From Salinimicrobium profundisediminis (lineage in GTDB: Bacteria; Bacteroidota; Bacteroidia; Flavobacteriales; Flavobacteriaceae), in contig NZ_JAPJDA010000002.1 in assembly GCF_026241755.1 (NCBI RefSeq), positions 1-64,000 of the forward strand: a DNA stretch of 64,000 nucleotides, in the 5' to 3' direction. Positions 4,252 through 60,439 of the stretch are shown here, piece by piece; position 1 is the stretch's first letter, and every line of letters starts with the position of its first letter. A model generated the notes under the pieces. That model searched no databases, was not told the origin of the DNA, and saw nothing but the letters and a program-made list of their open reading frames with translations. Made by a program: the position numbers and the translations under genes.

Positions 4252-4270
4252 TTAGAAATGCCATTTTTGA
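4252..4270 (+). repeat. 19-bp dispersed palindrome, copy 1 (imperfect)
   Basis: TTAGAAATG-C-CATTTTTGA, 63 bp after the upstream stop codon. The left arm has two mismatches to the consensus TCAAAAATG. It is followed by GAGGTAAG, an extension shared with copies 2 and 3. Confidence 0.7.
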
Positions 4271-4360
4271 GAGGTAAGTTGCATTAATCCTTATTCTGAA
4301 GTTGTTTGAGTGAATGATCAATGAATAATAAACAGATCTACAATTTGCAGTTCCCCGTCA

Positions 4361-4412
4361 GTTCGAGTGTTTTTCGCCATGCGGGAGCATGGTGAAAAAT
4401 GTATCGAGAACC
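4361..4412. repeat. Intergenic inverted repeat
   Basis: TTTTTCGCCATGC pairs with GCATGGTGAAAAA (one mismatch) around GGGA, with GTTCGAG and CGAGAAC at the outer ends. The shape is that of a dispersed non-coding hairpin repeat. No further copy was seen in this window. Confidence 0.55.
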
Positions 4413-4522
4413 GGGTAAATCTTTGACTGCAATAGCAAGGGTAGATTTGTATCAAGAACAGTGGCTAAGTGGACGGCTTTCTTCCCGATACGATTTCCCG
4501 TCGCTCCAGCTCATAAAAATCA

Positions 4523-4541
4523 CCTGCCTGTATCAGGCAGG
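4523..4541. repeat. Perfect hairpin CCTGCCTG-TAT-CAGGCAGG
   Basis: An 8-bp perfect stem with a 3-nt loop in non-coding DNA. It lacks the T-run of a terminator. Confidence 0.6.
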
Positions 4542-4682
4542 CTCGAAGTCACGCCCATGAGAAAAACATGGTTAGGCAATTTAAAAAAGGTGGTGGTGGA
4601 TTTTCATCTCAAACTCAAGCCCTGGTTCCAAATTCTTGCAGCGAAGCGATCCAATTTTTTAATTACGCGGAATAATTCCTAT

Positions 4683-4706
4683 AAATAGGATATTTTCCTA
4701 TTTTTG
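4683..4706 (+). promoter_or_regulatory. LexA-like operator overlapping the -7 element
   Basis: AAATAGGA-N5-TCCTATTT (4683-4703) is a perfect 8+8 dyad. Its right arm overlaps TATTTTTG (4699-4706), a perfect TAnnTTTG -7 element 16 nt before the ATG. The core TAGGA-N5-TCCTA is the same as the dyad upstream of the XRE/S24 repressor gene (16623-16637). A bound repressor would therefore block this promoter; this is inference from the two sites. Confidence 0.6.
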
Positions 4707-4721
4707 CTGAAAGTCTTCAGC

Positions 4722-5981
4722 ATGGATTATGAGAGAATAAAAGAGAAGCTAAGTATCCTGGCCGATGCAGCAAAATACGATGTGTCCTGTTCTTCCAGCG
4801 GAAGCAAACGCAAAAACACCACCAATGGCCTGGGAGATTCCTCGGGCATGGGCATTTGCCATTCCTACACCGAAGATGGCCGCTGCGTTTCCCTGCTCAA
4901 GATCCTGCTCACCAACCACTGTATTTTTGACTGCGCCTACTGCGTGACCCGCAAGAGTAATGAGGTAAAACGCGCTGCTTTTAAGGTGCAGGAAGTGGTT
5001 GATCTTACCATTCACTTTTACCGACGCAATTATATTGAAGGTCTTTTCCTGAGTTCCGGAATCTTTAAAGATGCCGATTATACTATGGAACGCCTTATCC
5101 AGGTGGCGAAAAAGCTGCGACTGGAAGAGAATTTCAATGGCTATATCCACCTGAAGTCGATTCCCGGTGGCAGCGACGAACTCATGCGCGAAGCCGGACT
5201 CTATGCCGATCGGCTGAGCGTCAACATCGAGATCCCCACCAAAAGCGGACTCAAGCTCCTGGCACCCGACAAAAAGCATGAAGATTTCATGAAGCCGATG
5301 GAAAAGGTGAAAAATGAGATCATCCAGTACAAACAGGAAAGCCGGCTTATAAAAAGCACCCCAAAATATGCCCCGGCGGGACAAAGCACGCAGATGATCA
5401 TAGGCGCCTCGGGCGAAAGCGATCGCGACATCATGTATTCGGCCAACTTTTTTTATAAGAAGTACAACATGAAGCGGGTTTATTATTCGGGATACGTGCC
5501 GGTGGCTGAAGATCCGCGGTTGCCGGCTTTGAATTCTCAGGTGCCGCTGTTGCGGGAGAACCGGCTGTACCAGACCGACTGGCTGCTGCGCTTCTACGGC
5601 TTTGATATTCGGGAGCTGCTGAATGAGCAGCACCTCAATCTCGACCTCGAAGTAGATCCAAAACTCAGTTGGGCGCTGCGAAACCGGCATTTGTTTCCGG
5701 TGAATATCAATCGGGTAGAAAAGCAATTGCTTTTGCGCATTCCCGGTATCGGATTAAAATCGGTCAACAAGATCCTGCAGGCGAGGAAATTCCGGAAACT
5801 CAATTGGGAACACTTGAAGAATATCGGGATCGCCATGAACCGGGCGAAACATTTCATCACCTGCGACTCCCGCGAATTTGAAGTGAAAGAACCTTCCAGC
5901 GAGTATCTCAAAAATGTCATTTTAAAAACCTCTTCCGGAAAGTTCAGGAAGGAGATCGGAACCCAGTTAAGCCTTTTTTAG
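4722..5981 (+). CDS. Putative DNA modification/repair radical SAM protein (TIGR03916 type)
   Basis: A 419-residue protein. C67, C71 and C74 form the radical-SAM CxxxCxxC motif in NHCIFDCAYC. A C-terminal helix-hairpin-helix DNA-binding motif (PGIG at 341-344) follows. This architecture, directly linked to the next gene, is the radical SAM member of the poorly characterised DNA-repair pair TIGR03916/TIGR03915. The ATG at 4722 is chosen over an in-frame TTG at 4704, which lies inside the -7 element. The next gene starts at the base after the stop codon, so the two are probably translationally coupled. The operator suggests LexA-type, damage-responsive control (inference). Confidence 0.85.
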   Translation: MDYERIKEKLSILADAAKYDVSCSSSGSKRKNTTNGLGDSSGMGICHSYTEDGRCVSLLKILLTNHCIFDCAYCVTRKSNEVKRAAFKVQEVVDLTIHFYRRNYIEGLFLSSGIFKDADYTMERLIQVAKKLRLEENFNGYIHLKSIPGGSDELMREAGLYADRLSVNIEIPTKSGLKLLAPDKKHEDFMKPMEKVKNEIIQYKQESRLIKSTPKYAPAGQSTQMIIGASGESDRDIMYSANFFYKKYNMKRVYYSGYVPVAEDPRLPALNSQVPLLRENRLYQTDWLLRFYGFDIRELLNEQHLNLDLEVDPKLSWALRNRHLFPVNINRVEKQLLLRIPGIGLKSVNKILQARKFRKLNWEHLKNIGIAMNRAKHFITCDSREFEVKEPSSEYLKNVILKTSSGKFRKEIGTQLSLF

Positions 5982-6764
5982 ATGGAACAGCAGGCAGTAC
6001 TTACTTATGACGGCACGCTGGAAGGTTTTCTTTGCTGCGTGTTCACCGCCTACGAAGAAAAGCTGAAAGTTGTGGATGTAAAACCGCCGGGAGCGCAGCC
6101 GGGCCAACAACTATTTTCAGAATCAAAGGAGGTGATCACAGAGCCTGAAAAGGCCAAACGCGTATGGAGGTCCATGAAGAAAAAAGCTTCTCCCGCCGGG
6201 CTTCGGGACCTAAAATGGGCTTTTCTGAGTGAAATTTCAGGGATGGAAATGCACATGTTCAGTATGATTCGCTATATCCTGGCTGAAAATGTGCCTGTAG
6301 ACCGGGATTTTTCCCATCCTGCAGTGCTGAAAGTGGCGCAGGCAGCTAAGAAAGTCGGCCGGGAGAAACATCGCATGGAAGCTTTTGTGCGATTCAGGCT
6401 GACCAAAGAGCAGGTGTATTTTGCGGCAATAGAACCCGATTTCAACGTGTTGCCGCTAATAAAAAGCCATTTTAAGAACCGGTATGCAGATCAAAAGTGG
6501 ATCATCTATGATCTAAAACGGAATTTCGGCATCGCGTGGGATCTTTCAGAAATAAATTATATCACCCTGGATCTCGATCCCGCCATAGGAATTTCAGGCT
6601 CACCCGAGGCTTTTTTTCACACTTCAGAAATAGCCTTTCAGCAGTTATGGGATCAGTATTTTACCAGCACAAACATCAAAAGCAGGGCAAACTCTAAGTT
6701 GCATGTGCAACACCTCCCAAAGCGGTACTGGAAATACCTCACCGAAAAGAACCTTCAGAAATGA
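5982..6764 (+). CDS. Putative DNA metabolism/repair protein, TIGR03915/DUF4130 family
   Basis: A 260-residue partner of the radical SAM gene. Visible family features are the N-terminal YDGTLEGFLCCVFTAYE segment and the conserved region MEAFVRFRLTKEQVYFAAIEPDFNVLPLIKSHF-like (residues about 128-165), followed by RYADQKWIIYDLKRNFGI. The domain is also found fused to uracil-DNA-glycosylase-like proteins, hence the repair assignment; its reaction is unknown. ATG follows the upstream TAG directly. Its TGA stop lies inside a copy of the dispersed palindrome. Confidence 0.82.
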   Translation: MEQQAVLTYDGTLEGFLCCVFTAYEEKLKVVDVKPPGAQPGQQLFSESKEVITEPEKAKRVWRSMKKKASPAGLRDLKWAFLSEISGMEMHMFSMIRYILAENVPVDRDFSHPAVLKVAQAAKKVGREKHRMEAFVRFRLTKEQVYFAAIEPDFNVLPLIKSHFKNRYADQKWIIYDLKRNFGIAWDLSEINYITLDLDPAIGISGSPEAFFHTSEIAFQQLWDQYFTSTNIKSRANSKLHVQHLPKRYWKYLTEKNLQK

Positions 6765-6773
6765 CATTTTAGA
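6755..6773 (+). repeat. 19-bp dispersed palindrome, copy 2 (degenerate)
   Basis: TCAGAAATG-A-CATTTTAGA spans the stop codon of the preceding gene. GAGGTAAG follows it, as in copy 1. Confidence 0.5.
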
Positions 6774-6891
6774 GAGGTAAGTTTCTTTCTCTGATCATGT
6801 TTATCAATCTGAACAGGTCTTTGTGAATTATTTGCAATTAAGAAGTTTCCCTTCGGTCATTAAGATTTCGATTTTATTCATGTTTGTTCAT

Positions 6892-7283
6892 TTTTTTGCT
6901 TGTCCAAAAAAACGAACCAAAAAAAGGACACTTTTTTGATAGGTGTTTCCAATTTTGCTCCCGCAAAACTAGAACCGTGCTCCCCCGGCTAAATTTTTTC
7001 CAAGGCTTCAAAAATTTTTAACGCCGGGGGAGCACTACACTTACAAAAAAGAATCTCCCCGAGAATAATTGTGGAAAACATGTTACCGGCCTATCGAAAA
7101 TTGATCATGAAATTTGAAGAGAGATGACGTTTAAATCTTATGCTGTTTGAGCGTTCTTTATTATTCTCGTTCTACAATTTCTCCCGCGAGTTCAGAAAAT
7201 TTAGACATCGACCGAAAAATTTAGATCAATTTACGTAAGCCTAGCGTTTTTTGGTTCTTTTTTGGGCAATGCAAAAAAGAACA
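6892..7283. repeat. MITE-like element with inverted ends
   Basis: The left end (6892-6930; GCTTGTCC then A-runs around CGAACC) and the reverse complement of the right end (7244-7283; GCATTGCCC then A-runs around GAACC) align over about 38 bp with few differences. About 390 bp in all, no ORF. Inside is a second hairpin, GTGCTCCCCCGGC (6977-6989) paired perfectly with 7023-7035 across an AT-rich 33-nt loop. No clear target-site duplication was recognised. Transposition by a transposase in trans is possible but not shown. Confidence 0.55.
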
Positions 7284-7521
7284 GAACAATATTCAATTGG
7301 AAAAATTCTTATCCTTTTTTTTCAAAATAACCCGCTGACAATGGTATTTTAGATATGTAGGTCACGAGGTGATTTCTTGTTTAAAATAGAACCTAAAATA
7401 GACGTCATTCTGAATTTATTTCAGAATCACTTAGATCTGGTCTTTGGAAAAAACGTGAACCTGAAACTCCCGAAGCATCGGGACAGGTTGATGCCTGACA
7501 AATCCTTCAGAAAAAATCCTT

Positions 7522-7540
7522 CAGAAAATGCCATTTTAAA
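7522..7540 (+). repeat. 19-bp dispersed palindrome, copy 3 (degenerate)
   Basis: CAGAAAATG-C-CATTTTAAA followed by GAGGTATG, of the same subfamily as copies 1 and 2. It is 29 bp upstream of the hemN Crp/Fnr dyad. Confidence 0.5.
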
Positions 7541-7568
7541 GAGGTATGTAATTCAGACATTTATGACC

Positions 7569-7611
7569 TGATTAAAATCATGTTATAATCAGAGCCAGCC
7601 TTATACTTTTG
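7569..7611 (+). promoter_or_regulatory. hemN promoter with Crp/Fnr dyad
   Basis: The dyad TGA-TTAAAA-TCA (7569-7580) is centred 29.5 bp upstream of the first base of TACTTTTG (7604-7611), a perfect TAnnTTTG -7 element. That places the dyad near -41.5, the class II activator position. Confidence 0.7.
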
Positions 7612-7628
7612 CAACTAAATTAAAAGGT

Positions 7629-8993
7629 ATGAGCACTTCTTTAATTCAGAAATACAACGTTCCCGGCCCCAGGTATACCAGTTATCCCACGGTGCCCTAC
7701 TGGAACGAAGCTGCATTTACGGTAGCACAATATAAAGAGCGGTTAAAAAAGTCATTTTTGGAGAGCAACAGCGAAGAGGGGATAAGTATCTACATCCACC
7801 TGCCTTTTTGCGAGAGCCTGTGTACTTTTTGCGGCTGCAACAAACGCATTACCAAACGTCATGAAGTGGAGTCGCCGTACATCGCTGCAGTGCTTGAGGA
7901 GTGGGACATGTACGTGAACCTGCTGGAGGAAAACCCGGTGATTAAGGAGATTCACCTGGGTGGAGGAACACCCACCTTCTTTTCTCCGGAAAACCTTAGG
8001 ATCCTTCTCGACGGACTTTTTGAAAAAGCTGATCGGGCAGAGGAAACCGATTTCAGCTTTGAAGGCCACCCCAACAACACCAAACAGGAACACCTGCAGT
8101 TACTTTACGACCTGGGCTTTGACCGGGTGAGCTACGGGGTGCAGGATTATAATTTTGAGGTGCAACGGGCTATTCACAGGTTTCAGCCCTTTGTGAATGT
8201 GAAAAATGCTACTGAAGGCGCCCGCGAAATTGGTTACACCTCTGTGGGTCATGACTTGATTTTTGGTCTGCCGTTTCAGACTGTAGACCACGTGAGGGAA
8301 ACCATAGAGAAAACCAGAGAATTGATGCCCGACAGGATTGCTTTTTACAGCTATGCGCACGTGCCGTGGATAAAAGGGAACGGGCAGCGTGGTTTTAAGG
8401 ATGAAGATCTGCCAACAGCCGCTGTGAAACGCGAAATGTACGAGGTGGGAAAACAGTTACTTGCCGAAGCCGGATATGTAGAAGTGGGTATGGATCATTT
8501 TGCTCTAAAGACCGATACGCTGTACAAGGCGATGGAAAGCAACAAGCTGCACCGCAACTTTATGGGCTACACCTCTTCAAAGACCAAAGTGATGATTGGC
8601 CTGGGAGTTTCGGCTATTAGTGACAGCTGGAGCGGTTTCGCCCAGAATGTCAAGACCATTGAAGAATATTACGGGATCCTTGAAAAAGGCGATCTGCCCC
8701 TTTACCGCGGACATATACTCACTGCGGAAGATGAAAAAATGCGACAGCACATTCTGAATCTTATGTGCAACCTGGAAACATCATGGAAAGACGACGTTAT
8801 GAAATTTCCGGAACTTCCTGAAGTCCTCATCAGCCTGAAAGAAATGGAAGCCGACGGCCTCCTGGAATTCGGGGATGAAAAACTCATCATCAAAGAAACA
8901 GGACGTCCTTTTGTAAGGAACATCTGCATGGCATTTGACCTGCTGCTGCAAAGAAATAAACCGGAAACGAGGTTGTTTTCTATGACGGTTTAG
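7629..8993 (+). CDS. hemN: Oxygen-independent coproporphyrinogen III oxidase
   Basis: A 454-residue radical SAM enzyme that decarboxylates coproporphyrinogen III to protoporphyrinogen IX without oxygen. C61, C65, C68 and C70 form the CxxxCxxCxC motif of true HemN. GGGTP (SAM binding), YGVQD and the C-terminal HemN domain (KMRQHILNLMCNLE) are present, and length matches the family. It supplies heme under low oxygen, consistent with its Crp/Fnr promoter and the cbb3 oxidase and heme-containing NirK genes in the same regulon. Monocistronic. Confidence 0.95.
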   Translation: MSTSLIQKYNVPGPRYTSYPTVPYWNEAAFTVAQYKERLKKSFLESNSEEGISIYIHLPFCESLCTFCGCNKRITKRHEVESPYIAAVLEEWDMYVNLLEENPVIKEIHLGGGTPTFFSPENLRILLDGLFEKADRAEETDFSFEGHPNNTKQEHLQLLYDLGFDRVSYGVQDYNFEVQRAIHRFQPFVNVKNATEGAREIGYTSVGHDLIFGLPFQTVDHVRETIEKTRELMPDRIAFYSYAHVPWIKGNGQRGFKDEDLPTAAVKREMYEVGKQLLAEAGYVEVGMDHFALKTDTLYKAMESNKLHRNFMGYTSSKTKVMIGLGVSAISDSWSGFAQNVKTIEEYYGILEKGDLPLYRGHILTAEDEKMRQHILNLMCNLETSWKDDVMKFPELPEVLISLKEMEADGLLEFGDEKLIIKETGRPFVRNICMAFDLLLQRNKPETRLFSMTV

Positions 8994-9250
8994 GAAAGGG
9001 GTTTAAGGTTCAAAATTCAAAGTTCCTACGTCTTTCCAAAGAACATTTTTAGCGACTGCGGCAATTTCCTTCTTTTGGAGTTCTGCTCTCGCTTTTTACT
9101 TCGGATGAAGATGTTCATTTTTATTGCCCGACTTTTTCGTATTTCCTCCGATCGATAGAGAATTCACTTTGAGTCTTACGCATATCATTCGGAAATAAAA
9201 TAGGAATTGAAGGATTATTTGAATTCATTATCTTTATTAAAAATGATGAG

Positions 9251-9502
9251 ATGGAAGCTATAGAATTAAGGCGCAGGTTAGTGGATTACATCAATAAAGC
9301 TGACGAAACGGTACTAAAAGAAGTTCAGGCCCTGGTGGAGAATTATGAAAATGATTCCATAGTGGCTTATACTGTAAAGGGAAAGCCTTTAAATAGAGAA
9401 GAGTTTCAAAAGGAAAATTCTGAGGCTGAGGCTGAATATAAAAAGGGTAATTTTAGTACACAGGATCAACTAGAGGAAGAAGTCAGGAATTGGAGAAAAT
9501 AA
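9251..9502 (+). CDS. Antitoxin-like protein of a ParE/RelE-type module
   Basis: An 83-residue, highly charged, helical protein (MEAIELRRRLVDYINKAD...). It has the small size and composition of antitoxin-like components found in front of ParE/RelE toxins in Bacteroidota. The PLNREEFQKENSEAEAEYKKGN segment is typical of the toxin-binding tail. It overlaps the next frame by 13 nt, the usual toxin-antitoxin arrangement. Because the toxin is broken, this is probably an orphan antitoxin. Confidence 0.65.
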   Translation: MEAIELRRRLVDYINKADETVLKEVQALVENYENDSIVAYTVKGKPLNREEFQKENSEAEAEYKKGNFSTQDQLEEEVRNWRK

Positions 9503-9693
9503 TTTGGACTAACCCCGCTAAAACTTCCCTTCGCCATATATGGCAGTTCTATGTAAATCACAAACTTGATGTTGGTGTCGATTGCCTTTCACCTTTTAAA
9601 TATTCGTTCCGGCTAAGCTCCAGTTCCTGCTCCCAAGGTTTTTTGCTCAATTTGCAGAAGAAGTTGGTGGAGGGGAGTCATTCAGAAAACTGA
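9490..9693 (+). pseudogene. Truncated ParE/RelE-family toxin
   Basis: The first 24 or so codons (MEKIIWTNPAKTSLRHIWQFY) match the N-terminus of RelE/ParE toxins, which are usually about 95-100 residues. After NHK the frame becomes unrelated serine/leucine-rich sequence and stops at 67 codons. The catalytic and antitoxin-binding C-terminal strands are missing. A deletion or replacement rather than a simple frameshift is suspected, because no other frame resumes a toxin-like sequence. Confidence 0.6.
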
Positions 9694-9983: not shown

Positions 9984-10016
9984 CTCTAATTTTTAACTGA
10001 AGATACCAGGAAAAAA

Positions 10017-11993
10017 TTAAATTTCTGAGAATCCTATTGATTTCAGATAATTAAAAGTTGAATTATAAAATTCTGGTTTTCTTGTATGGTCTTCATTACT
10101 TCCCTCTGGAACTACTATTACCATACCTTGTCGGGCTCGGGTTAACAATACGCGGTAAGCATTAATTAAATATTTTTGTCGCTCTTCCTTATGTATATGC
10201 TGCCATTTCTTTCCAACAAAAGAAAAACTTTTCCACCCTTCTTTAGAATATCGTAGATCACCGTCCCAGGTTACACAAGCCCAATCGAGCTCAAGACCTT
10301 GCACATGAAATTCTGTTGCTACATCTTCTAAAAAATAGGAAGAACGAACATCGTCTCTATCATTCAAAAACCAATGAACAGGATTCATTGGACTTTTCAC
10401 ATCAATAGCGTAAGGTTTTAATCGCTGGGCTTGTGAGGAAACAATGATTCCATACCGTTCACTTCCTCTTGCTTTTTCTTTAAGCCACTTCTTAGCTTTA
10501 TGCACATTGCGTGTGAGAACAATTGGATAATTAGTCGATAAATTAGAATAAGTTTTAATTGCCGAACTGTAATCGAGGTCGAGAATATTCTTTACAAGTA
10601 GAGATAAATTTTCTGCTCTAAAAGAACGCATAGAAACCTTTAAATGTAAAGAAGGATTCAACTTTACTGAAGTTTTCTCTTTAAGATTAGTTATGGCTTC
10701 TTCAGCTTGATATTCAGAATCCACTAAGTTTGGAGAAATATAGACCTCCCAATTTGAAAATCTATTTTTTATTGCCTCTAACCATTCAGAAATTCCAGCT
10801 TCACCGGTATTTATTTCTTGTCCTCCACCTACTAAACAGATAATAACAGACCAATCTTTATGACGGTCCAAACATGATATCAAAAATTCAGGTTCTGAAA
10901 AATCAAAATCATGCTGACCTTTTTTCTGCTTCATGAATTTGACTGTTTGCTCCTTATTCCACGCCCGTTGTGCTTCATCAAAAATGGCGACGTGATCGTA
11001 TGGTGGTTTTGGATCGACTAGATATGCATCTCTATAATGGTGAATATTTTGAATAAAGGTTTTGACACTTGCCCTCGCTTTCCCCTTGGTCAGTTTTCTT
11101 CCATTCTCTTTTTCATTTTTAATTTTATCTCTTGCTAAAGCTTCTTGAAGAATTGAAACTAAAGGCCCGTTTCCTGAAAGATATACGCTGGTATTTCCGT
11201 TTTCTTCATCAAGATGAGAAGTTGCGACTTTTAGACCAACTAAAGTTTTTCCGGCACCAGGCACACCGGTGACAAAGCATATAATTTTTTTCTTTTCTAT
11301 TTGGGCTTTTTTAATGACTTGCGAAATTAGAGAAGTCGTTTCGGTAAGGTTTTTAGCCTCTGCATCGCTACGTGTAATTTCGTCGACGGTATGAGTCCGG
11401 TAAAGATTTAATGCAGCTTCGACAATGGTGGGAGTAGGAGAATAACTTCCAGCAGCATATTCTGCTGATATATCTTGTTCTTTATCAGTGTAAAAACTTA
11501 GAGTCGTAGAAATTGCATCCTGAAGATCCTGTTGATTTACTTTAATAGGAAGCAACAATTTATCATTATGGGATGTGGTAGCAATTTCAATAATAGAGTT
11601 TTCTGCTTCTGTTGCAACCAAGATTGGAACTAGAAGAGCCTTGTGACTTGGCTTGTGAAAGTTTTTTAAATCTAATGCATAATCCCAAACTTGTTCAATG
11701 TTGATGTTATGATATTTACTTTCTCCAACTTTAAACTCTATTACAAAAACAGTGTTTTGAATAATTACCAAAGCATCTACTCTTTTCCCCATTCTCGGAA
11801 TAGAAAATTCAAAAAATATCGTGCCACTATAAGATTTTAAGACCTTTTGAAGAATGTATATTTGGAGTTCCCAAGATTTGTTTTGTTTTCTATTTGAGTC
11901 GAATTGATTAGAAAGGGTTATTTCCCCAATTATTTCCTCTCTACTTTTATTTATAAAAGTTTGAATGTCGTCCTTATAGTAGGAATTTAGCAT
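10017..11993 (-). CDS. PD-(D/E)xK nuclease-like + DUF2075 (Schlafen-type) helicase
   Basis: A 658-residue two-part protein. The N-terminal region (to about residue 110) has D73 and E86-F-K88 in RVDALVIIQNTVFVIEFK, matching a PD-(D/E)xK nuclease core. The C-terminal region is a DUF2075 P-loop ATPase: Walker A GVPGAGKT near residue 240, Walker B IFDEAQRAW near 336, and a motif VI-like AYRVLLTRARQG near 625. DUF2075 proteins are superfamily 1-like helicases related to the Schlafen group 3 domain, and nuclease+helicase fusions of this kind are frequent in anti-phage islands. The region is AT-richer than its surroundings and adjoins a decayed toxin module. A role in defence is inference. Confidence 0.78.
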   Translation of the reverse strand: MLNSYYKDDIQTFINKSREEIIGEITLSNQFDSNRKQNKSWELQIYILQKVLKSYSGTIFFEFSIPRMGKRVDALVIIQNTVFVIEFKVGESKYHNINIEQVWDYALDLKNFHKPSHKALLVPILVATEAENSIIEIATTSHNDKLLLPIKVNQQDLQDAISTTLSFYTDKEQDISAEYAAGSYSPTPTIVEAALNLYRTHTVDEITRSDAEAKNLTETTSLISQVIKKAQIEKKKIICFVTGVPGAGKTLVGLKVATSHLDEENGNTSVYLSGNGPLVSILQEALARDKIKNEKENGRKLTKGKARASVKTFIQNIHHYRDAYLVDPKPPYDHVAIFDEAQRAWNKEQTVKFMKQKKGQHDFDFSEPEFLISCLDRHKDWSVIICLVGGGQEINTGEAGISEWLEAIKNRFSNWEVYISPNLVDSEYQAEEAITNLKEKTSVKLNPSLHLKVSMRSFRAENLSLLVKNILDLDYSSAIKTYSNLSTNYPIVLTRNVHKAKKWLKEKARGSERYGIIVSSQAQRLKPYAIDVKSPMNPVHWFLNDRDDVRSSYFLEDVATEFHVQGLELDWACVTWDGDLRYSKEGWKSFSFVGKKWQHIHKEERQKYLINAYRVLLTRARQGMVIVVPEGSNEDHTRKPEFYNSTFNYLKSIGFSEI

Positions 11994-14665: not shown

Positions 14666-15063
14666 ATATCCTTTAGGCCCCAAACTTCAATCCCACTTTG
14701 ACCTCATTAGAGAGATGTAGAAAAATGCCATTTTTGAATATCCAATAGATGCTCTGATTTTGGTGATCTTCCTGTTGTGGGTCTAGACTTAAGTACCACT
14801 TCAGCAGTAAAGGTTTTCAATAATGATATCAGCAGAACTGTAACTTCAAAATTAACTTCAGGATTGGGTAATATAAACCCAGAACCGTTTCATACTGAAG
14901 GAAGAAAGCAATTAAAGCAAGTCTTCTTTACATCCTATTTAATCCTTTATTTTTTAAGATGTTTTTGTATATTATCTAATTTTTTTATTAAATAATTGCT
15001 AATTGATTAAGCCCAGGAGCAGCAGTTTACTACTTTGGTGGTCTCAAATGAAAATTAAAAACT
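14666..15063. other. Intergenic stretch
   Basis: About 400 bp with one palindrome copy (14719). A 72-codon GTG-start frame here has no family resemblance and is not considered a gene. Otherwise nothing recognisable. Confidence 0.5.
14719..14737 (+). repeat. 19-bp dispersed palindrome, copy 4
   Basis: AGAAAAATG-C-CATTTTTGA, 53 bp after the DUF456 stop codon. Two differences in the left arm. Confidence 0.7.
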
Positions 15064-18980: not shown

Positions 18981-18999
18981 TCAAAAATGCCATTTTTGA
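18981..18999 (+). repeat. 19-bp dispersed palindrome, copy 5 (perfect)
   Basis: TCAAAAATG-C-CATTTTTGA, 30 bp after the YihY stop codon and 16 bp before the ccoI Crp/Fnr dyad. Confidence 0.85.
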
Positions 19000-21454: not shown

Positions 21455-21875
21455 CCCTCAGTAGCCTTGCTGTGGCAAAATATTCTGAACCTGTTTTTTT
21501 CTGAAAAAAAGTTGGGATTTAGAGCCAAAAACTTATACTTTAGGAAGGTGATTATTTGTTTTCCTGCCTCATGGCGGGAAAGCGACGAGAAAGCAAACCC
21601 CTACTTGCTTCTTGTTGCTTTAAAGCACCCTCCCAAACGCCCTTTTTGACACAGCAGAAAAAAAAACCTTTCCCGGTAATCTTATTATATTTAGTTTCTG
21701 AAGAACTGGTTTCCCTTAACTCAAGATCTCTTGTAATAAAATGAGATCGAAAAATACGGGGATCCAAAAATGCCATTTTTGACACCTCTCTATTTTTAAG
21801 TATGGATATTTTGAGCTCCATGTGCTATCAGGTTAAGAAGAAAAGTTTAATGATTTCCACTTACTTTCAAGAGTT
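21455..21875. other. Intergenic stretch
   Basis: 420 bp, with one palindrome copy (21764) and no credible gene. Short frames here read through A- and T-runs. Confidence 0.5.
21764..21782 (+). repeat. 19-bp dispersed palindrome, copy 6
   Basis: CCAAAAATG-C-CATTTTTGA, one mismatch, followed by CACCTC. Confidence 0.8.
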
Positions 21876-22829
21876 ATGATTCCACCCCCTTATTCAGAGT
21901 TTCCTGAAATTGCTTCTGAAGATATCCTGCTTCGGAAAATTAGACCCGAAGATGTTCCGGTGCTGGTGAGTATTTCCTACTACGACGGAAAAAAGGCTAC
22001 AAATGAAGCTGAAGCTGCCATGATGCTGAAAAATATCGAGCAGGATTATATTTCTGGAAACAGCATTCACTGGGGTATAGAAGAAAAGAGCACGGGAAAG
22101 ATTGCAGGCACCTGCGGCTATTACCGTGGCTTCAAAAATGATTCGGGAGAGCTTGGTTGCATCCTGCTCGAGAAGTACAGGGGCAAAGGCTTTATGAGCC
22201 GGGCAATGCGACTGGCAATAGCTGTGGGGTTTAAGAAAGGCCTTAAAAAGATATTTGCTGTGACTTCTAACGGGAATAATTCCGCCATTAAACTCCTGGA
22301 GCGGTTAAACTTCAGAAGGACCGGAGAAGAAGATCATGAAATACATTACGCGATCTCCCGGGAAGAACTTTTCAGCATAAGAGCCTTCAGAAATGATGAA
22401 AAAGAAGAAATTTTAAAGCTGCTGCGATTAAATACTCCCAAAAGCTTTCACCCTTCCGAAGAAAAAGATTTGCGAGAATACCTGGAAAATGAGGCTGAAA
22501 ATTATTTTGTTGTAAACGGCCCCGGCGGCATTGTGGCTGCAGGAGGTTTTAATACCGGTTTTGATAAAGGCCGGGCGGCAAGGATCTCATGGGATTTGGT
22601 GCACCCGGAATTTCAGGGTTTGGGAATTGGGAAAAAGTTGACGCTCTACCGCATTGAGCAAATCAAAAAACTACCTGGCATTGAAAAAATTGTTGTGAGG
22701 ACTACCGGGCAGGCCGAAAAATTCTATGAAAACATGGGGTTCCAAAAAAGGCATTTTGAGAAGGACTTTTGGGCGCCGGGTTTTGATCTTTACCAAATGG
22801 AGATGAGGATTAAAAAAAGGACTGCCTGA
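21876..22829 (+). CDS. Double GNAT-domain acetyltransferase
   Basis: A 317-residue fusion of two GNAT N-acetyltransferase domains. The first (residues about 10-170) is RimJ-like: LRKIRPEDVPVL, then ELGCILLEKYRGKGFMSRAMRLAI as acetyl-CoA motif A, and NGNNSAIKLLERLNFRRTG. The second (about 172-310) has WDLVHPEFQGLGIGKKLTLYRIEQIK and TTGQAEKFYENMGF. Both acetyl-CoA loops look intact. Substrates unknown. Monocistronic. Confidence 0.85.
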   Translation: MIPPPYSEFPEIASEDILLRKIRPEDVPVLVSISYYDGKKATNEAEAAMMLKNIEQDYISGNSIHWGIEEKSTGKIAGTCGYYRGFKNDSGELGCILLEKYRGKGFMSRAMRLAIAVGFKKGLKKIFAVTSNGNNSAIKLLERLNFRRTGEEDHEIHYAISREELFSIRAFRNDEKEEILKLLRLNTPKSFHPSEEKDLREYLENEAENYFVVNGPGGIVAAGGFNTGFDKGRAARISWDLVHPEFQGLGIGKKLTLYRIEQIKKLPGIEKIVVRTTGQAEKFYENMGFQKRHFEKDFWAPGFDLYQMEMRIKKRTA

Positions 22830-30979: not shown

Positions 30980-30998
30980 TCAAAAATGCCATTTTTGA
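30980..30998 (+). repeat. 19-bp dispersed palindrome, copy 7 (perfect)
   Basis: TCAAAAATG-C-CATTTTTGA, 82 bp after ccoG, inside the cco gene series between ccoG and ccoH. Confidence 0.85.
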
Positions 30999-36600: not shown

Positions 36601-36619
36601 CCAAAAATGCCATTTTTGA
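36601..36619 (+). repeat. 19-bp dispersed palindrome, copy 8
   Basis: CCAAAAATG-C-CATTTTTGA, 15 bp after the CoA-transferase stop codon and 30 bp before the thioredoxin start codon. Confidence 0.82.
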
Positions 36620-39856: not shown

Positions 39857-39875
39857 CCAAAAATGCCATTTTTGA
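39857..39875 (+). repeat. 19-bp dispersed palindrome, copy 9
   Basis: CCAAAAATG-C-CATTTTTGA, preceded by ACCT. Confidence 0.8.
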
Positions 39876-40021: not shown

Positions 40022-40040
40022 CCAAAAATGCCATTTTTGA
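40022..40040 (+). repeat. 19-bp dispersed palindrome, copy 10
   Basis: CCAAAAATG-C-CATTTTTGA, followed by GACCTC, 52 bp beyond the stop codon of the convergent methyltransferase gene. Confidence 0.8.
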
Positions 40041-40092: not shown

Positions 40093-40734
40093 TTACTTTC
40101 GTTCCCCAAGCAGCAGGGTGTTACTTCCGTAGACATTTTCCTTCTGCTGAAAATGTATGCCTAAAGTGTCATTTTTGAGCAGGTAGTCGATATGTTCCTG
40201 GTGCGCCTCATTTATTCCGGCATTGAAAAGCACTTTCCCATCTGCCGTTAATAATGCTGCAACATTCTTCCAGAAAGCATCGGTAAAGAACTGCGCCGGC
40301 ACCTTGAGATCCAGGAAGAGGTCGATAATTATAAACCCGAACTGCTGTTGCGAAGAGGCAACAAATGCTTCAGCATCGGTACACAGCAACTCGAGGGGTT
40401 GATGTGCTTCAATATTAAACTCATTTTTGGCAATTTCTATAACTGCAGCATCAAGTTCTACGGCAGTGATCTTTCCGTAGTAGCCATATTTGTTCCGAAG
40501 CAGGGGAATTGCACTACCGCCTCCCAGGCCCAGAAGCAGCACCGGGGCAGCACGATCTGCACGCACTTCTGCAAAACCATGGTCAAGCACTTCCTGAAGG
40601 GCACCGTAAGAATAATTGGCGTTACTGCTGTCAAGCACCTTGCGCCCGTTGATCCAGGTGACTTCCAGTTTCCCATTGTAATTGGAGTTGTACTTTTTGG
40701 TGAGCGGCCACAGGTAGCTGAAGGTCTTTTTCAT
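40093..40734 (-). CDS. Spermidine-synthase-like methyltransferase-fold protein
   Basis: 213 residues with a Rossmann-type class I fold. LLLGLGGGSAIPLL is the nucleotide/aminopropyl-donor loop, VELDAAVIEIAKNEF the acidic strand 2, and IIIDLFLDLKVPAQFFTDAFW the post-motif region. It is shorter than canonical SpeE (about 280) and lacks a clear N-terminal beta domain, so a true polyamine role is uncertain. Monocistronic. Confidence 0.8.
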   Translation of the reverse strand: MKKTFSYLWPLTKKYNSNYNGKLEVTWINGRKVLDSSNANYSYGALQEVLDHGFAEVRADRAAPVLLLGLGGGSAIPLLRNKYGYYGKITAVELDAAVIEIAKNEFNIEAHQPLELLCTDAEAFVASSQQQFGFIIIDLFLDLKVPAQFFTDAFWKNVAALLTADGKVLFNAGINEAHQEHIDYLLKNDTLGIHFQQKENVYGSNTLLLGERK

Positions 40735-43538: not shown

Positions 43539-46022
43539 TTAGAATTTATTGATTGAATAATTGAGTTTTAAATAGAAGGCTCTTCCCGGCTTCTGCACGG
43601 CAAAATTGTCATAAGCCTGTTTGTTGAATATGTTGTTGGCATCAAAGCTCACAATGAGATTCTTTTTTGGAAAAACGTAGCTCAAGCCAACATCCCGTAT
43701 ATGTTGTTCGGGGACCATCGAGTTTTCAAGTCCGCTCCTTTTATTCACCACCCATACATTGTAAAAGGAGTCAACAAAAGCATAGTTATAATAGATGTTT
43801 AGTAAAGATTCCTTCTGAAACACATTTTTGAAGGAATACCGGGCCGAAGCATTGGCAGTAAAGAACGGTTCACTTGGTATTTGCACGTTGTAGTTAAACA
43901 GAACTTTACCATTAGAATCATACTTTGTACTCATCCTGGTATTGAATTTGGACAGGTTGACCAGCAGGTTGAGGTTATCTTTAAAAATATAATTTAATTC
44001 TGCATCAAAGCCTTTAGACTCTGTTCCTCTCAGGTTTACAAAAGGAGCAGTTTGTTGTGCATCATTCAAGGTCATTTGGGGTTCCCTTACAATCATGCCG
44101 CGTGTGTCCCTTAAAAACCCAGAAGCGTAGAGAGAGACGCTGTGTTCACCAATTTTGTACGGGCCGATCTTGAATCCGAGGTTATAATTATTGCTTTGTT
44201 CGGGTTCCAGTCCTGAATTTTCGGCAACATTTTCTCCTACATCCCCAAAGATCTCGTTATCAGTAGGAAGCCTGAGGGCTTTTTCTGCGGAACCTAAAAT
44301 AGCAATGCCCGAGTTCACCAGGTAAGAAAGGGCCATCCCGTATCCCGTATAATCGAAATTATTGCTGAAGTATTCTTCTACCCGCACCTCTTCCCCGTCA
44401 ATGGTTTCTACACCTGGGTCCATTTGCCTGGTTTTTTGCTGGTAGTACTTTCCGAAGACATTGGCCTTTAATTTATCATTGAACCATCTCGACTCATAAG
44501 AAAAAGAGGAAATATTCTTTTCAAGCTCACGGGTTTCAATGAAGTTCTTTCTTATCCCGTTCCAAAGCTCATCATTCTGCTCTCTCGAAATATTGTAAAG
44601 TACGTGGTGCAGGCCAATCTTGTGATTGTTGTTAAAGGAGTAAGTAAGTCCTCCCCTAAAAGAGTAAATATCCCGGTAAATATTTGCAATGGTAGGCGCT
44701 CCCTGCTGTGCTCCCCGCTGCGACGGTATAGGATCTCCTTTTCGGTCGCGGCTAAGTTCACCAGACCAGTTGTAGGTCCAGGTCACCGTATCATTTATAG
44801 TTCTTTTGCGCTCGTTGTATAAACCGTGAAAATTGAAGTCTAGACCTTTAATAAAAAGATCAGATTTTTCGTATGTGAGATTCACAATACCCGCCTCGGC
44901 TTCCATGAACCTTCCTTTATATGGGATGGTCATGTACGCACCATGCTGAATTTCGTTGTAAGAATCTGAAGCCGTATATCCCACAGAAAATTTATCGGCC
45001 CAATTGACCTTTTTGAAACCTGCTTCTAGAATTCCGCCACGGGAAGAGTATTCATCATTGAACCTCTTCACCTTTACATAATCATATTTCCCATTGGGCA
45101 GAATGTTGTAAACATTCCTTCCCCAAACCTCGTAATCATTATCGGAATGGTTATAAAATCCTGAAGCTTTCACAAAAAATCCGGAGTTCTCTGCCTGGTA
45201 AACTGCATTGAAATTGGACTGGAAAGTATTGAAGGAGCCATAAGAAACCGAAGCATTGATCTGGGTTCTAAAATCATCTCTCAAAATGACATTTATGGCA
45301 CCTCCCAAAGCATCAAAAGCAAGTTCGGCAGGAACCACACCTTTGTAGACATCAATACGTTCTATCATGCTGGGGCTAATGCTGCTAAGGTCGAAGGAAG
45401 AACCGTAAGACGAAAGTGGAATTCCGTCAATAAAAATCTGGATGGAGTTACCAGACATCCCGTTGAGGTTATAGTCTACAGAAGAGCCCAAACCACCACC
45501 CTGTCTTATTTTCACTCCCACACTTCTGTTCAGGAGTTCGTTGGTTTGAATATTTCTTACCGCAGCTTCTTCTGTTTCAATGACATTTACCGCGAAACCT
45601 TTCTTTTCAATTTCAGATTTTACAGATTCTACATTCAGAAGTACCTCACTCAGTTCATAATCTCCTTTATTTTTAATCTGAAAGTTCTGCACCACGTCTT
45701 CCCCGTTAATGATCACTTCGCCATATTCAACGTGGTTCTCCTTCCGAAGTTCAATTATATATGACCCTGAAGGCACCCCGGAAATTTCATAATAACCTGA
45801 ATAATTTGATGTGGCCTTGAATTCTTCCGAAGTATTTGAGAGAACAACTTCAACATTGGCTGAAGAATATCCATTATGATCTTTTAAATAACCGGAAACG
45901 GTATATGTAGCACTAATCGCCTGCCCGGCCTTTTCCCCGGAATTGTTAGCTGTTTGCCCAAACACAACCACCGAAAAAAAGCAGAAGAGAACGGACCAGA
46001 TATATGAAGATGCAGATTTCAA
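43539..46022 (-). CDS. xusA: TonB-dependent siderophore receptor, XusA-like
   Basis: 827 residues with a signal peptide (cleavage near VVFGQ). Domains in order: carboxypeptidase-regulatory-like beta-sandwich (about 35-115; VSGYLKDHNGYSSANVEVVL), plug (about 145-255; VKIRQGGGLGSSVDYNLNGMSGNSIQIFIDG), and a 22-strand barrel ending in an aromatic-basic tail (YLKLNYSINKF). Imports iron-siderophore with XusB. Likely controlled by the divergent AraC gene. Confidence 0.9.
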   Translation of the reverse strand: MKSASSYIWSVLFCFFSVVVFGQTANNSGEKAGQAISATYTVSGYLKDHNGYSSANVEVVLSNTSEEFKATSNYSGYYEISGVPSGSYIIELRKENHVEYGEVIINGEDVVQNFQIKNKGDYELSEVLLNVESVKSEIEKKGFAVNVIETEEAAVRNIQTNELLNRSVGVKIRQGGGLGSSVDYNLNGMSGNSIQIFIDGIPLSSYGSSFDLSSISPSMIERIDVYKGVVPAELAFDALGGAINVILRDDFRTQINASVSYGSFNTFQSNFNAVYQAENSGFFVKASGFYNHSDNDYEVWGRNVYNILPNGKYDYVKVKRFNDEYSSRGGILEAGFKKVNWADKFSVGYTASDSYNEIQHGAYMTIPYKGRFMEAEAGIVNLTYEKSDLFIKGLDFNFHGLYNERKRTINDTVTWTYNWSGELSRDRKGDPIPSQRGAQQGAPTIANIYRDIYSFRGGLTYSFNNNHKIGLHHVLYNISREQNDELWNGIRKNFIETRELEKNISSFSYESRWFNDKLKANVFGKYYQQKTRQMDPGVETIDGEEVRVEEYFSNNFDYTGYGMALSYLVNSGIAILGSAEKALRLPTDNEIFGDVGENVAENSGLEPEQSNNYNLGFKIGPYKIGEHSVSLYASGFLRDTRGMIVREPQMTLNDAQQTAPFVNLRGTESKGFDAELNYIFKDNLNLLVNLSKFNTRMSTKYDSNGKVLFNYNVQIPSEPFFTANASARYSFKNVFQKESLLNIYYNYAFVDSFYNVWVVNKRSGLENSMVPEQHIRDVGLSYVFPKKNLIVSFDANNIFNKQAYDNFAVQKPGRAFYLKLNYSINKF

Positions 46023-47470: not shown

Positions 47471-47489
47471 TCAAAAATGCCATTTTTGG
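47471..47489 (+). repeat. 19-bp dispersed palindrome, copy 11
   Basis: TCAAAAATG-C-CATTTTTGG, one mismatch, about 300 bp after the AraC gene. Confidence 0.8.
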
Positions 47490-53745: not shown

Positions 53746-53760
53746 CCGTTATAACAAAAC

Positions 53761-53789
53761 AAAAAAGCAGCTATCAAGGCTGCTTTTTT
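53761..53789 (+). terminator. Terminator of gltBD
   Basis: AAAAAAGCAGC pairs with GCTGCTTTTTT. It also lies at the end of the convergent HAD gene and works in both directions. Confidence 0.88.
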
Positions 53790-53802
53790 GTTTTCATTGT
53801 TT

Positions 53803-54597: not shown

Positions 54598-54692
54598 AGG
54601 CTTTAAATATTGATTGGCTAAAAGGTTCTCACAGCACCAGAATTTGGTGCAGTATTACGTCCTGAAGTTACGCAATCTTTTAAAACCAGTGG

Positions 54693-55052
54693 TTAGAGCA
54701 AAAAGATATTATCATTAAACTCTTTCCCTTTGAAGACCCGTGCGTAGAACTCCAAATCTCCTCGTGTAGTTTGAAAGGAAGCTGTTAATTTATCCTCCAG
54801 TTCATCAAGCGGAAATTGATACACCGTGATCTCGGGATAAGATGCAGCTCTCTGCTTCGACTCATTCACCCCAATCTCAATCTTCTCAAGATGCGCGTTG
54901 TAGGAGGCGTATTTTGCAAATAGATTGTGCTTGATAAGTTCCACTAAACCTCCAGGCAGGCTCTTATTTACCCTGCAGCTTTCAATCATTTTTCCCAGCG
55001 AGATCTTCCAGAGCGACCTCATCTCATTTTGGGTTACGTAAGTTGTGGTCAT
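54693..55052 (-). CDS. Hypothetical protein, 119 aa
   Basis: Not recognised. Soluble, with no signal peptide. Starts MTTTYVTQNEMRSLWKISLGKMIES and has a beta-rich centre (YPEITVYQFPLDELEDKLTASFQTT). Not part of a clear operon: the HAD gene starts about 95 bp downstream on the same strand. Believed coding because the frame is uninterrupted and has no overlapping competitor. Confidence 0.55.
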   Translation of the reverse strand: MTTTYVTQNEMRSLWKISLGKMIESCRVNKSLPGGLVELIKHNLFAKYASYNAHLEKIEIGVNESKQRAASYPEITVYQFPLDELEDKLTASFQTTRGDLEFYARVFKGKEFNDNIFLL

Positions 55053-55528
55053 ATTTTCTAAGTTTTATGCCGAAACAATTTCTTCTTTTCTGAAATTTTC
55101 TTCAGAATGACCCTTCAAAAATGTCATTTTTGAACAGCCTTTTTGAAGGGAATGGATATTTAAGTAAAATCCGAAAATCACTTTTCAAATAACAACATTG
55201 TTACTTCAATTTATTAGCAACAAAATTTAAAATTGAGATTAAATTTATATAAAAAAAGACACAACCCCCTATAAATCACTGTGATAAATTATATTTTTAT
55301 GATAAAATGAAATCCTACCCCCAAATTTTATGAGGTTAATATTTATAAATGACATTTTTATTAAATTGATTATATGGAAATCCACACAAAGTCATTTGCG
55401 GGTAGAAAAATGAGCTTTCCCTTCCAAAAATCATAGTCTATTCTACCCTTTTTGAAGGCTAATCTACTTCCAGAGAAGGGGAAAATTATTTTTTAACCTG
55501 TCATCACCTGAAAATTTCAGAAAAAAAT
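55053..55528. other. AT-rich intergenic stretch
   Basis: About 475 bp of AT-rich DNA with palindrome copy 12 and a GGGTAGAA...TTCTACCC pair (55400-55407 and 55441-55448). No gene seen. Confidence 0.55.
55115..55133 (+). repeat. 19-bp dispersed palindrome, copy 12 (perfect arms)
   Basis: TCAAAAATG-T-CATTTTTGA, 63 bp upstream of the start of the 119-aa gene (minus strand). Confidence 0.85.
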
Positions 55529-58702
<3,174 letters not shown>

Positions 58703-58964
58703 TTAAAAAAAATTACATTTTAGGACAAAGAAGACTCCTGGTCTTTTATTTATTCCTCACCATTGCTGGTTGTAGGAATAATCTGATCTAAAAGTATTAA
58801 AATATTACCTCTTAACATTTTGTATAGGAAGAAAAAAAAGGGAGGAATTAATTTTTCATAAGAATATGATGAAGCTTAAATATATTTTTAGCTTGTCCGT
58901 CTTTAGATTGAAGAAAAAGCCTTAAACCCACTATAGAATCCTCAAGGGGTTCTGCGTTCCGGCT

Positions 58965-59079
58965 GCGATTAACGCCAGTATGCGGAATTTAGCACGCGGA
59001 GTAGTCGGCCTGTTGTTTTGTTGTTTGGTGTTCTAATTTATTGTTTTCCTTGAATGCCGCATATTGGCTTCGTTAACGC
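58965..59079. other. Imperfect long hairpin resembling an attC-type site
   Basis: The left arm GCGATTAACGCCAGTATGCGG (58965-58985, 21 nt) and the right arm at 59057-59079 pair over about 20 bp (GCG, TTAACG, CCA.TATGCGG in common), with a single-base and a two-base bulge. The 71-nt spacer is GT-rich. Imperfect pairing with unpaired bases is what integron attC sites show. No integrase gene is in the window, so the identity is only a resemblance. Confidence 0.4.
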
Positions 59080-59080
59080 T

Positions 59081-59099
59081 GTTGTAGCTAGTTTTTATT
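59081..59099 (+). repeat. Left 19-bp inverted repeat of orphan gene unit
   Basis: GTTGTAGCTAGTTTTTATT. Matches the reverse complement of 59975-59993 at 18 of 19 positions. It directly follows the attC-like hairpin. Confidence 0.7.
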
Positions 59100-59234
59100 A
59101 ATCGAATCTCATTAAAAACCTATAAAGTTAAGGTATCATTGACATTTGCTATATTTGAGTGGAATTCTGGTAATATAGTTCCCTACATTTTTACGAGACA
59201 GTTTAGTAAGAAATTGGAATAAATTTTTGAACGG

Positions 59235-59897
59235 ATGAAAAAATGGTTTAAAAAGCATTATCAATGGGTAATTGGTGTAGTTCTCATTCCCATATTTATT
59301 GCTTTTCTTTCGTTAATAAATCTATCTCCTTCTAATCAAAATGTTCAGAATATTTCGACTGATGAGATTTCTGGTGGTGTTATTGGAAATAATAATACCT
59401 TCAATGTAATGAAACAGAAATTCTCAGAAGAGCACATTAAATTAATAAAGAGAAGACGAGATTATATAAATGAAAATATTGATAGGTGGTATAAATATGA
59501 AGACGGTAAGAAATACTTATACCACTTTAATATCTTAGTTGATGATCTGTTATCAGCTGCAAAAGATGGAAATAGTATCTTGTTTCAAGAAATATTGCGT
59601 GAAATACATTTTTTGTCATTCCGTCTTGAAAGAAATAATGAAATTAAAAAAATAGTTACTGAAGAGCCTGGTATGCAATTCTATCCTAATACTAATACTG
59701 GGATGTTTTTAGATTATGAAAAGAGGGGATTTATAGGGGGGAAGATAATGAACTTACTTACCCGAGGTGTTGATGCAATGATTTATTTACCAAATGATTC
59801 AGTAAGTCAATTACACTTAGACTCTCTATATGAAGTTCCGGAAAATAAAAAAATGAATGTTCTGAAATTTGATACAATTTTCAATTATACTCATTGA
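59235..59897 (+). CDS. Orphan membrane-anchored protein in an inverted-repeat unit
   Basis: 220 residues, family not recognised. Residues 12-30 form one membrane segment (WVIGVVLIPIFIAFLSLIN). Next comes a polar stretch with GGVIGNNNTFNVMKQK and then a helical, lysine-rich soluble domain. The sequence is visibly AT-richer than its neighbours. The gene is bounded by the inverted repeats at 59081 and 59975 and preceded by a large hairpin, which suggests it came in as a unit. A GGNNNTFN pattern is also seen in short beta-helical or effector-type proteins, but this is too weak to name a function. Confidence 0.65.
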   Translation: MKKWFKKHYQWVIGVVLIPIFIAFLSLINLSPSNQNVQNISTDEISGGVIGNNNTFNVMKQKFSEEHIKLIKRRRDYINENIDRWYKYEDGKKYLYHFNILVDDLLSAAKDGNSILFQEILREIHFLSFRLERNNEIKKIVTEEPGMQFYPNTNTGMFLDYEKRGFIGGKIMNLLTRGVDAMIYLPNDSVSQLHLDSLYEVPENKKMNVLKFDTIFNYTH

Positions 59898-59974
59898 TTT
59901 TTCAATAATTTTAAATAACCAGACCCAATTTTAAATTCTTATAAGTACTAAAAGGTATTATCTTCTTTCAATCA

Positions 59975-59993
59975 AATAAAAATTAGCTACAAC
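59975..59993 (-). repeat. Right 19-bp inverted repeat of orphan gene unit
   Basis: Top strand AATAAAAATTAGCTACAAC, reverse complement GTTGTAGCTAATTTTTATT. One mismatch to the left repeat. The unit between the outer ends is about 913 bp. Confidence 0.7.
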
Positions 59994-60216
59994 TACTAAT
60001 AAGGAGAAAGTTCAGCCTCAATTACTTGAGATCAGGGATTCAGATCGAAAAAATAAAAAAGAGATATTGAAATTACCGCTCTCTCCCCGCCATTCGGAAT
60101 GGAAGAGCTCTCTGTGCAGCCTTACGGCTACTGCCCAGAACACACTTAAGGACGTATTTAACCTTCCCTCAACTACGCTCGACACAGGCTTTTCACCCAT
60201 ACCTCTAAAAACAAAA

Positions 60217-60244
60217 AAACCGAACTGTTTTCACAATTCGGTTT
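60217..60244 (-). terminator. Terminator of tRNA-Gln
   Basis: On the minus strand AAACCGAA pairs with TTCGGTTT around a loop and is followed by T7. Confidence 0.75.
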
Positions 60245-60257
60245 AACATTAACTTTG

Positions 60258-60330
60258 TTGGCCTACTAGGGCTCGAACCTAGACTCTTCTGGACCAAAAC
60301 CAGACGTGTTGCCAGTTACACCATAGGCCA
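60258..60330 (-). tRNA. tRNA-Gln (anticodon UUG)
   Basis: On the minus strand, acceptor TGGCCTA pairs with TAGGCCA. The anticodon stem-loop TCTGG-TTTTGGT-CCAGA gives anticodon UUG, and the T-arm is CTAGGTTCGAGCCCTAG. CCA is not encoded. Confidence 0.96.
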
Positions 60331-60420
60331 CTGCTGTAATGCGGATGCAAATTTAAAACAAACTTTTACTTCTACAAATATTTTTTTGAAATTCTTTTTG
60401 CGCCTCCAAATCACGCCCCT

Positions 60421-60439
60421 TCAAAAATGGCATTTTTGA
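60421..60439 (+). repeat. 19-bp dispersed palindrome, copy 13 (perfect arms)
   Basis: TCAAAAATG-G-CATTTTTGA followed by CACCT, about 90 bp upstream of tRNA-Gln and 150 bp upstream of the GT117 gene. The centre base is G, i.e. the reverse orientation of most copies. Confidence 0.85.

Follow-up and report, generated by a model that had tools for sequence, protein, structure and literature searches.

A genus-specific dispersed palindrome of Salinimicrobium as a candidate DNA-uptake signal

The palindrome and its copies in the window

The window described here is a stretch of 64,000 nt from Salinimicrobium profundisediminis (NZ_JAPJDA010000002.1, positions 1-64,000), whose whole genome, referred to below as the own genome, measures 4.04 Mb. 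Dispersed across the window is a palindrome, TCAAAAATG-N-CATTTTTGA, which was matched 18 times with at most 3 mismatches, against a mean of 0.21 and a maximum of 2 in 100 shuffles. In the own genome, 459 matches with at most 2 mismatches were found, compared with 1 for the reversed pattern. The genome-wide count is therefore far above random expectation, and the statement in a preliminary description of this DNA that a chance origin is unlikely is borne out.

Further counts come from two samples, namely 864 kb of the own genome (the window and the adjoining 800 kb) and 1.6 Mb taken from a single 3.5-Mb contig of a second genome of the same genus, G009. A symmetric 39-bp matrix of 32.6 bits was trained on all 286 sites with at most 2 mismatches and applied with a cut-off of at least 14 bits. 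It detected 244 sites (282 per Mb) in the own sample and 388 (243 per Mb) in G009. The reversed sequences gave 1.2 (own) and 1.9 (G009) per Mb, and 80 loci from other organisms likewise gave 1.9 per Mb. Chance or base composition as the origin of the motif is ruled out by the shuffle, reversed-pattern and matrix controls. In the papers searched, neither the palindrome nor its 15-base core was found in a C- or G-centred form.

Genes in the window were called with a simple predictor written for this analysis, and small open reading frames may be miscalled because of this simplicity. All 13 copies listed in the preliminary description are present, and 12 of them are intergenic. The two perfect copies with a C centre lie 31 bp past a BrkB-family gene (18981-18999, 0 mismatches, matrix score 45.3 bits) and in the gap between the FixG and FixH genes (30980-30998, 0 mismatches, 41.9 bits). 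Two more have perfect arms as described, one at 55115-55133 (centre T, 0 mismatches, 40.4 bits) and one at 60421-60439, upstream of a TMEM260-like gene (centre G, 0 mismatches, 37.1 bits). A single mismatch is found in the intergenic copies at 21764-21782 (37.8 bits), 36601-36619, which begins 16 bp past a stop codon (38.9 bits), and 47471-47489 (35.6 bits), and also in the copies at 39857-39875 (37.5 bits) and 40022-40040 (41.7 bits), which share one convergent intergenic region. The intergenic copies at 4252-4270, 64 bp past a stop codon (36.2 bits), and 14719-14737 (20.0 bits) have 2 mismatches each, and another lies at 7522-7540 (22.8 bits). The remaining copy, at 6755-6773 (32.0 bits, 2 mismatches), overlaps the stop codon of the DUF4130 gene at 5982-6764, as had been noted.

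The copies had been thought to occur only in non-coding DNA, which does not hold, since seven further window sites of at least 14 bits are coding. Copies within radical-SAM genes were found at 5908-5926 (26.2 bits, 2 mismatches) and 7743-7761 (24.7 bits, 3 mismatches). Others lie within the acetyltransferase gene at 21876-22829 (22742-22760, 25.5 bits), a predicted gene at 40093-40734 (40160-40178, 20.8 bits, 3 mismatches) and a beta-galactosidase gene (56365-56383, 20.8 bits). The two weakest are located in a predicted DUF748-like gene, itself below the Pfam cut-off (3104-3122, 16.9 bits, 3 mismatches), and in the TonB-receptor-like gene at 43539-46022 (45280-45298, 14.5 bits).

Distribution, form and conservation of the copies

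With genes predicted by a simple hexamer model in both samples, the 120 own sites with at most 2 mismatches divide into 56 that lie entirely in genes, 55 entirely between genes and 9 that overlap a gene in part; the corresponding numbers for the 166 sites of G009 are 71, 92 and 3. Among matrix sites, 133 of 244 (own, 14 partial) and 196 of 388 (G009, 24 partial) are wholly coding. Densities in the own sample and G009 are highest in convergent intergenic regions (2.29 and 1.43 sites per kb), followed by co-directional regions (1.06 and 0.87), divergent regions (0.24 and 0.50) and genes (0.172 and 0.140). The comparison of coding with intergenic DNA proposed in the preliminary description thus has two outcomes: the density is about 6 times higher between genes, and coding copies are also far above chance. 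The motif as a purely intergenic element is rejected.

Along the chromosome, the density in G009 by distance from the skew minimum is 4.90, 4.95, 4.50 and 5.05 sites per 20 kb, which is even from origin to terminus, and an origin- or terminus-linked site is ruled out by this flat profile. Despite the AT-rich core, 20-kb segments of G009 with less than 41% GC contain a mean of 2.0 sites (n=11) against 5.3 in the others (n=69, p=0.00015), low GC serving as a proxy for foreign or recently gained DNA; the low-GC cassette arrays of another genome, G002, are nevertheless rich in sites. In the own genome and G009 alike, sites are also scarcest in the fifth of 5-kb bins that has the lowest GC.

The symmetry of the motif is rigid. 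When exact half words facing inward were collected with a spacer of up to 30 bp, the spacer was 1 in 48 of 48 pairs and in 63 of 65. Half sites that are strong but have a random partner occur at 47.5 and 70.1 per Mb, about 3-4 fold above the 16.3 of other organisms; two separate half sites are ruled out by the fixed spacer, though lone half sites are mildly enriched. Around sites picked by the core alone, the flanks show a purine at -5, G/C at -4 and -3, a predominant T at -2 and very rarely A at -1, and are A-rich at -7 to -10 from the core edge. This pattern is alike in intergenic and coding copies, being somewhat weaker in the latter. A-rich positions peak at three distances from the centre: about 5 bp (in the core), 17 bp and, as a weak peak, 30 bp. 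Their interval is closer to 12 bp than to the 10.5 bp of helical spacing. As for the centre, the C in 10 of the 13 listed copies is correct as a count, but across the genus samples the bias is mostly a preference for C or G: 147 co-directional intergenic sites have 64 C, 42 G, 24 T and 17 A on the sense strand (C versus G, p=0.04), and among 327 coding sites C (112) and G (109) are about equally frequent.

Pairing of the outer arms depends on location. Among 586 of the 632 sites (46 that overlap a gene partially, lie near an end or are without a neighbour were omitted), the fraction with at least 4 arm pairs, G-T allowed, is 0.30 for convergent sites (n=82, null 0.07), 0.16 for co-directional sites (n=147, null 0.06), 0.10 for divergent sites (n=30, null 0.07) and 0.04 for coding sites (n=327, null 0.04). 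The terminator form, paired arms followed by a T run, is found in a minority of intergenic copies, and coding copies are not above the null. Coding copies keep the flank letters without pairing, and therefore double-stranded DNA is what is read. For the same reason, the RNA hairpin at mRNA 3' ends suggested in the preliminary description is rejected as the primary role; as a possible secondary role it survives, for the hairpin can be an added, terminator-like use of intergenic copies.

Comparison of the two genomes indicates that the copies are conserved. When own sites were aligned to G009, 49 coding cores were 0.94 and 22 intergenic cores 0.91 identical, with flanks at 0.85; in the opposite direction, 55 coding cores were 0.92 and 21 intergenic cores 0.91 identical, again with flanks at 0.85. 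Control AT-rich 19-mers in genes (295 of 721 aligned), matched for GC and gene phase and not for amino acids, differ by 0.006 between core and flank. Indels were absent from all 49 and 55 aligned coding cores, so coding copies arise by substitution and not by insertion. In the aligned intergenic cores, indels were seen in 2 of 22 and 2 of 21.

The motif is confined to one genus and is thus lineage-specific. Across 40 genomes (the own genome and 39 relatives), 10 of the 11 others of the same genus contain 12-413 sites and one, G001 (74% complete), contains 0, while the 28 relatives outside the genus have 0-5 sites, near their own control counts. Among 299 family genomes searched with at most 1 mismatch, more than 1 site was found only in the three own-genus genomes drawn (255, 208 and 21). 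The genome with 12 sites, G003, has 71 near-motifs with at most 3 mismatches against 16 in its control, compared with 9-39 against 1-27 in ten other genera, an excess that would fit relics of the motif. Additionally, two IMG/VR contigs of 114 kb and 390 kb each carry one exact site in the stretch examined (L155:4840-4858 and L156:443-461).

In G002, 22 of the 54 sites with at most 2 mismatches are located on two short contigs, L096 and L097, which together span 25.3 kb. Many of these sites sit in the middle of repeats about 130 bp long, the ends of which are inverted (CGGTTAACG...CGTTAACCG), and others in different repeats. The arrays (L096:1-15124 and L097:1-10187, GC 33%) consist of small co-directional genes, including a HigB toxin/helix-turn-helix pair, with the repeats between them, and an IS110-type transposase stands at one end of L096. 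By their organization they look like integron-like gene cassettes with attC-like repeats. Such repeats as the source of the copies were not supported, being present in these arrays and absent from the 36 own-genome contexts examined.

Two other repeat features were noted. A predicted 3502-aa protein of the own genome (C5:3282-13787) has the palindrome at 11935, 12481 and 13027, a spacing of 546 bp, probably one palindrome per repeat. In the 864-kb sample, the words CTTCCGAAG/CTTCGGAAG (130 against 38 expected) and TTCCGCAGA/TCTGCGGAA (53 against 10.5) are over-represented, which may reflect codon usage or a second motif.

DNA-import genes and the role of the palindrome

A near-full profile match to ComEC (PF03772), in open frames of 648-690 aa, is present in all ten genus genomes with 54-459 sites. 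DprA was found in 11 of the 12 genus genomes. Both proteins occur in 10 of 10 genomes with at least 54 sites, and both are also common in motif-free genomes. The near-complete G003 has a comEC remnant with large losses and frame changes, in which about 286 of 671 residues are spread over three frames (L241:3634-4565, or G003:C11:32633-33564). The remnant is syntenic: it is flanked on one side by SurE, LpxB and an NlpC gene (49% identical) and on the other by thioredoxin-like and POT genes. A broken comEC is unusual, because the gene is present in 193 of the 199 family genomes with a completeness of at least 95% (a set that does not include G003).

On the contig of the window, at 152091-156281, a DUF5689/DUF5017 lipoprotein gene adjoins one for a CarboxypepD_reg outer-membrane protein. 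The pair is 87-90% identical in G009; against the NCBIfam family M949_1556, the lipoprotein falls below the cut-off (190.7 of 475 bits). An adjacent lipoprotein/outer-membrane pair of these domains is reported to be essential for transformation in Riemerella anatipestifer (PMC8459023). The Salinimicrobium pair in turn adjoins genes for two predicted DNA-acting enzymes, an Exo_endo_phos_3 protein and an endonuclease I whose domains include fn3 and lamin-tail, and judged by its domains the cluster (C24:152091-159809, or L104:8091-15809) may possibly serve DNA processing and uptake.

The best fit to these data, and one absent from the proposals of the preliminary description, is that the palindrome is probably a genus-specific self-recognition sequence for DNA uptake in natural transformation; this is held with moderate confidence. 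We infer that the motif is read during uptake. A symmetric reader, located on the cell surface or else in the periplasm, would recognize the motif as double-stranded DNA. The motif comprises the core TCAAAAATG-N-CATTTTTGA, its G/C-rich shoulders and the A-rich tracts about 12 bp further out. DNA bearing the motif would be favoured for import via ComEC; over many rounds of uptake and recombination, point mutations that bring a sequence closer to the motif would spread across the shared genome, including its genes. Some copies at gene ends would secondarily have been turned into terminator hairpins by pairing of their outer arms. A more specific version is put forward tentatively, at slightly less than even chances: a palindromic uptake signal in Bacteroidota would have a two-fold reader, perhaps belonging to the outer-membrane DUF5689 system rather than to a type IV pilus, which bends or kinks the dyad centre and so starts import, and the cassettes of one species, whose repeats contain the tag, would be taken up in the same way.

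Several points weigh against an uptake signal. The motif is a rigid palindrome and not an asymmetric word that gives a single copy an orientation; to our knowledge, uptake sequences known so far are not palindromic but asymmetric, so that each single copy has an orientation. The link between ComEC and the motif rests on a single near-complete genome, G003, where the DprA domain is kept, in an open frame of 281 aa, shorter than the 339-393 aa of the others. Moreover, the protein tree places G003 outside the ten genomes with the motif, for which reason it may never have had the motif, and the DNA tree does not resolve its place; loss of the motif and its original absence may both fit the trees (as a tree marker, gltB gave a strong match in only 5 of the 12 genus genomes). 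The genome without sites, G001, has no ComEC over the cut-off and no DprA at 74% completeness, and in G002 a full-length ComEC goes with no more than 54 sites. Nearly all of the family has ComEC, whereas the motif occurs in one genus, so the presence of this gene cannot by itself account for the motif. Sites are also clustered about 2-3 fold at 100-500 bp, partly through repeats within genes, and the conservation control leaves amino acids unmatched.

The main rival is that the palindrome, with about 1000 sites as extrapolated from the samples, is bound by a nucleoid-organizing or chromosome-segregation dimer comparable to Noc, SlmA or MatP. Dyad symmetry, the fixed one-base spacer, the regular A-rich tracts, the occurrence in coding as well as intergenic DNA and the conservation all fit a dimeric DNA-binding protein. 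Sites of the Noc, SlmA and MatP type are likewise palindromic, dispersed and found in genes, but they are far fewer and regionally biased to the origin or terminus, whereas the motif is even between the two. Neither the concentration at 3' ends nor the cassette arrays of G002 nor the scarcity in low-GC DNA is predicted by such a role, and it provides no reason for the broken comEC of G003. A chromosome-organizing site, as proposed in the preliminary description, therefore still stands as a candidate, weakened by the even density, and is considered unlikely. The probability left beyond these two explanations belongs to other roles.

That the copies serve as intrinsic terminators of transcription whose hairpin tip is conserved is improbable. 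Arms of intergenic copies pair above expectation, A/T runs are present, many copies lie just past stop codons, and some have long perfect stems (L013, L009 and L015). Termination, though, needs no conserved tip, and no more than 16% of the co-directional and 30% of the convergent sites reach 4 arm pairs. As a sole role it is refuted by the half of the sites that are coding, which have the same flank letters and no arm pairing.

Still less probable is an operator of a global transcription regulator, another earlier proposal. The 9-1-9 inverted repeat may resemble Fur-family operators in geometry; half of the sites are coding, however, and a global regulator is disfavoured because the divergent intergenic regions, which bear promoters, are the poorest in sites (0.24 and 0.50 per kb). 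Repetitive extragenic palindromic (REP)-like elements moved by a REP-associated tyrosine transposase (RAYT, Y1), or another short transposable repeat, would account for dispersed palindromes, the intergenic preference, Y1_Tnp matches in 9 of the 12 genus genomes and the few indels in intergenic cores, but such an origin is the least credible of all and is ruled out by the indel-free coding cores and by G004, which has 223 sites and no Y1_Tnp match.

Comparison with known uptake systems

The best-known examples of self-recognition during DNA uptake belong to two families of proteobacteria, both of which use type IV pili. Like the motif of Salinimicrobium, the DNA uptake sequence (DUS) of the Neisseriaceae has very many copies, is lineage-specific, lies in coding as well as intergenic DNA, and is densest between convergent genes, where it forms hairpins. 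In Table 4 of PMC1852404, the density of uptake sequences of N. meningitidis per region follows the order convergent, co-directional, divergent, and only 3 hairpins are listed among 635 intragenic copies, terminator hairpins occurring between genes. The DUS is asymmetric and needs two facing copies for a hairpin, whereas each copy of the motif is itself palindromic with a fixed one-base centre. Compared in this way, the distribution of the motif matches that reported for the Neisseria sequences in context order, near-absence of hairpins in genes and apparent co-option as terminators; its palindromic form does not.

The uptake signal sequence (USS) of the Pasteurellaceae consists of a core and A/T-rich regions, up to 32 nt in total (PMC12616744). 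It shares with the motif this layout, the high copy number and, apparently, the co-option as terminators. The A/T regions of the USS lie downstream only, whereas A-rich tracts flank the motif on both sides, and the core word of the motif differs from the USS AAGTGCGGT.

Another system for comparison is that of Riemerella, which is placed in the Flavobacteriaceae (PMC7965970, PMC8459023). Transformation of R. anatipestifer needs ComEC, DprA and the DUF5689 lipoprotein/outer-membrane pair (PMC8459023), all of which have domain counterparts in the own genome, and pilus homologs were not detected in that species (PMC8459023). Homologs of type IV pilus parts are reported for F. johnsoniae (PMC7965970), so a pilus in the motif genus is possible. 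The papers searched on DNA uptake sequences in Bacteroidetes and flavobacteria showed no such motif in the passages listed. R. columbina prefers its own DNA, and its candidate uptake words are A-rich k-mers of unproven role (PMC7965970); the motif, for its part, is not above chance outside its genus among the 299 family genomes.

If the palindrome is indeed an uptake signal, Bacteroidota would offer a further, independent case, in which the signal is palindromic and the import machinery possibly different, implying that such signals evolve repeatedly. It would also offer a direct test system, in which the motif predicts the DNA taken up and the reader is traceable by its two-fold symmetry. The preference of R. 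columbina for its own DNA might then be another instance.

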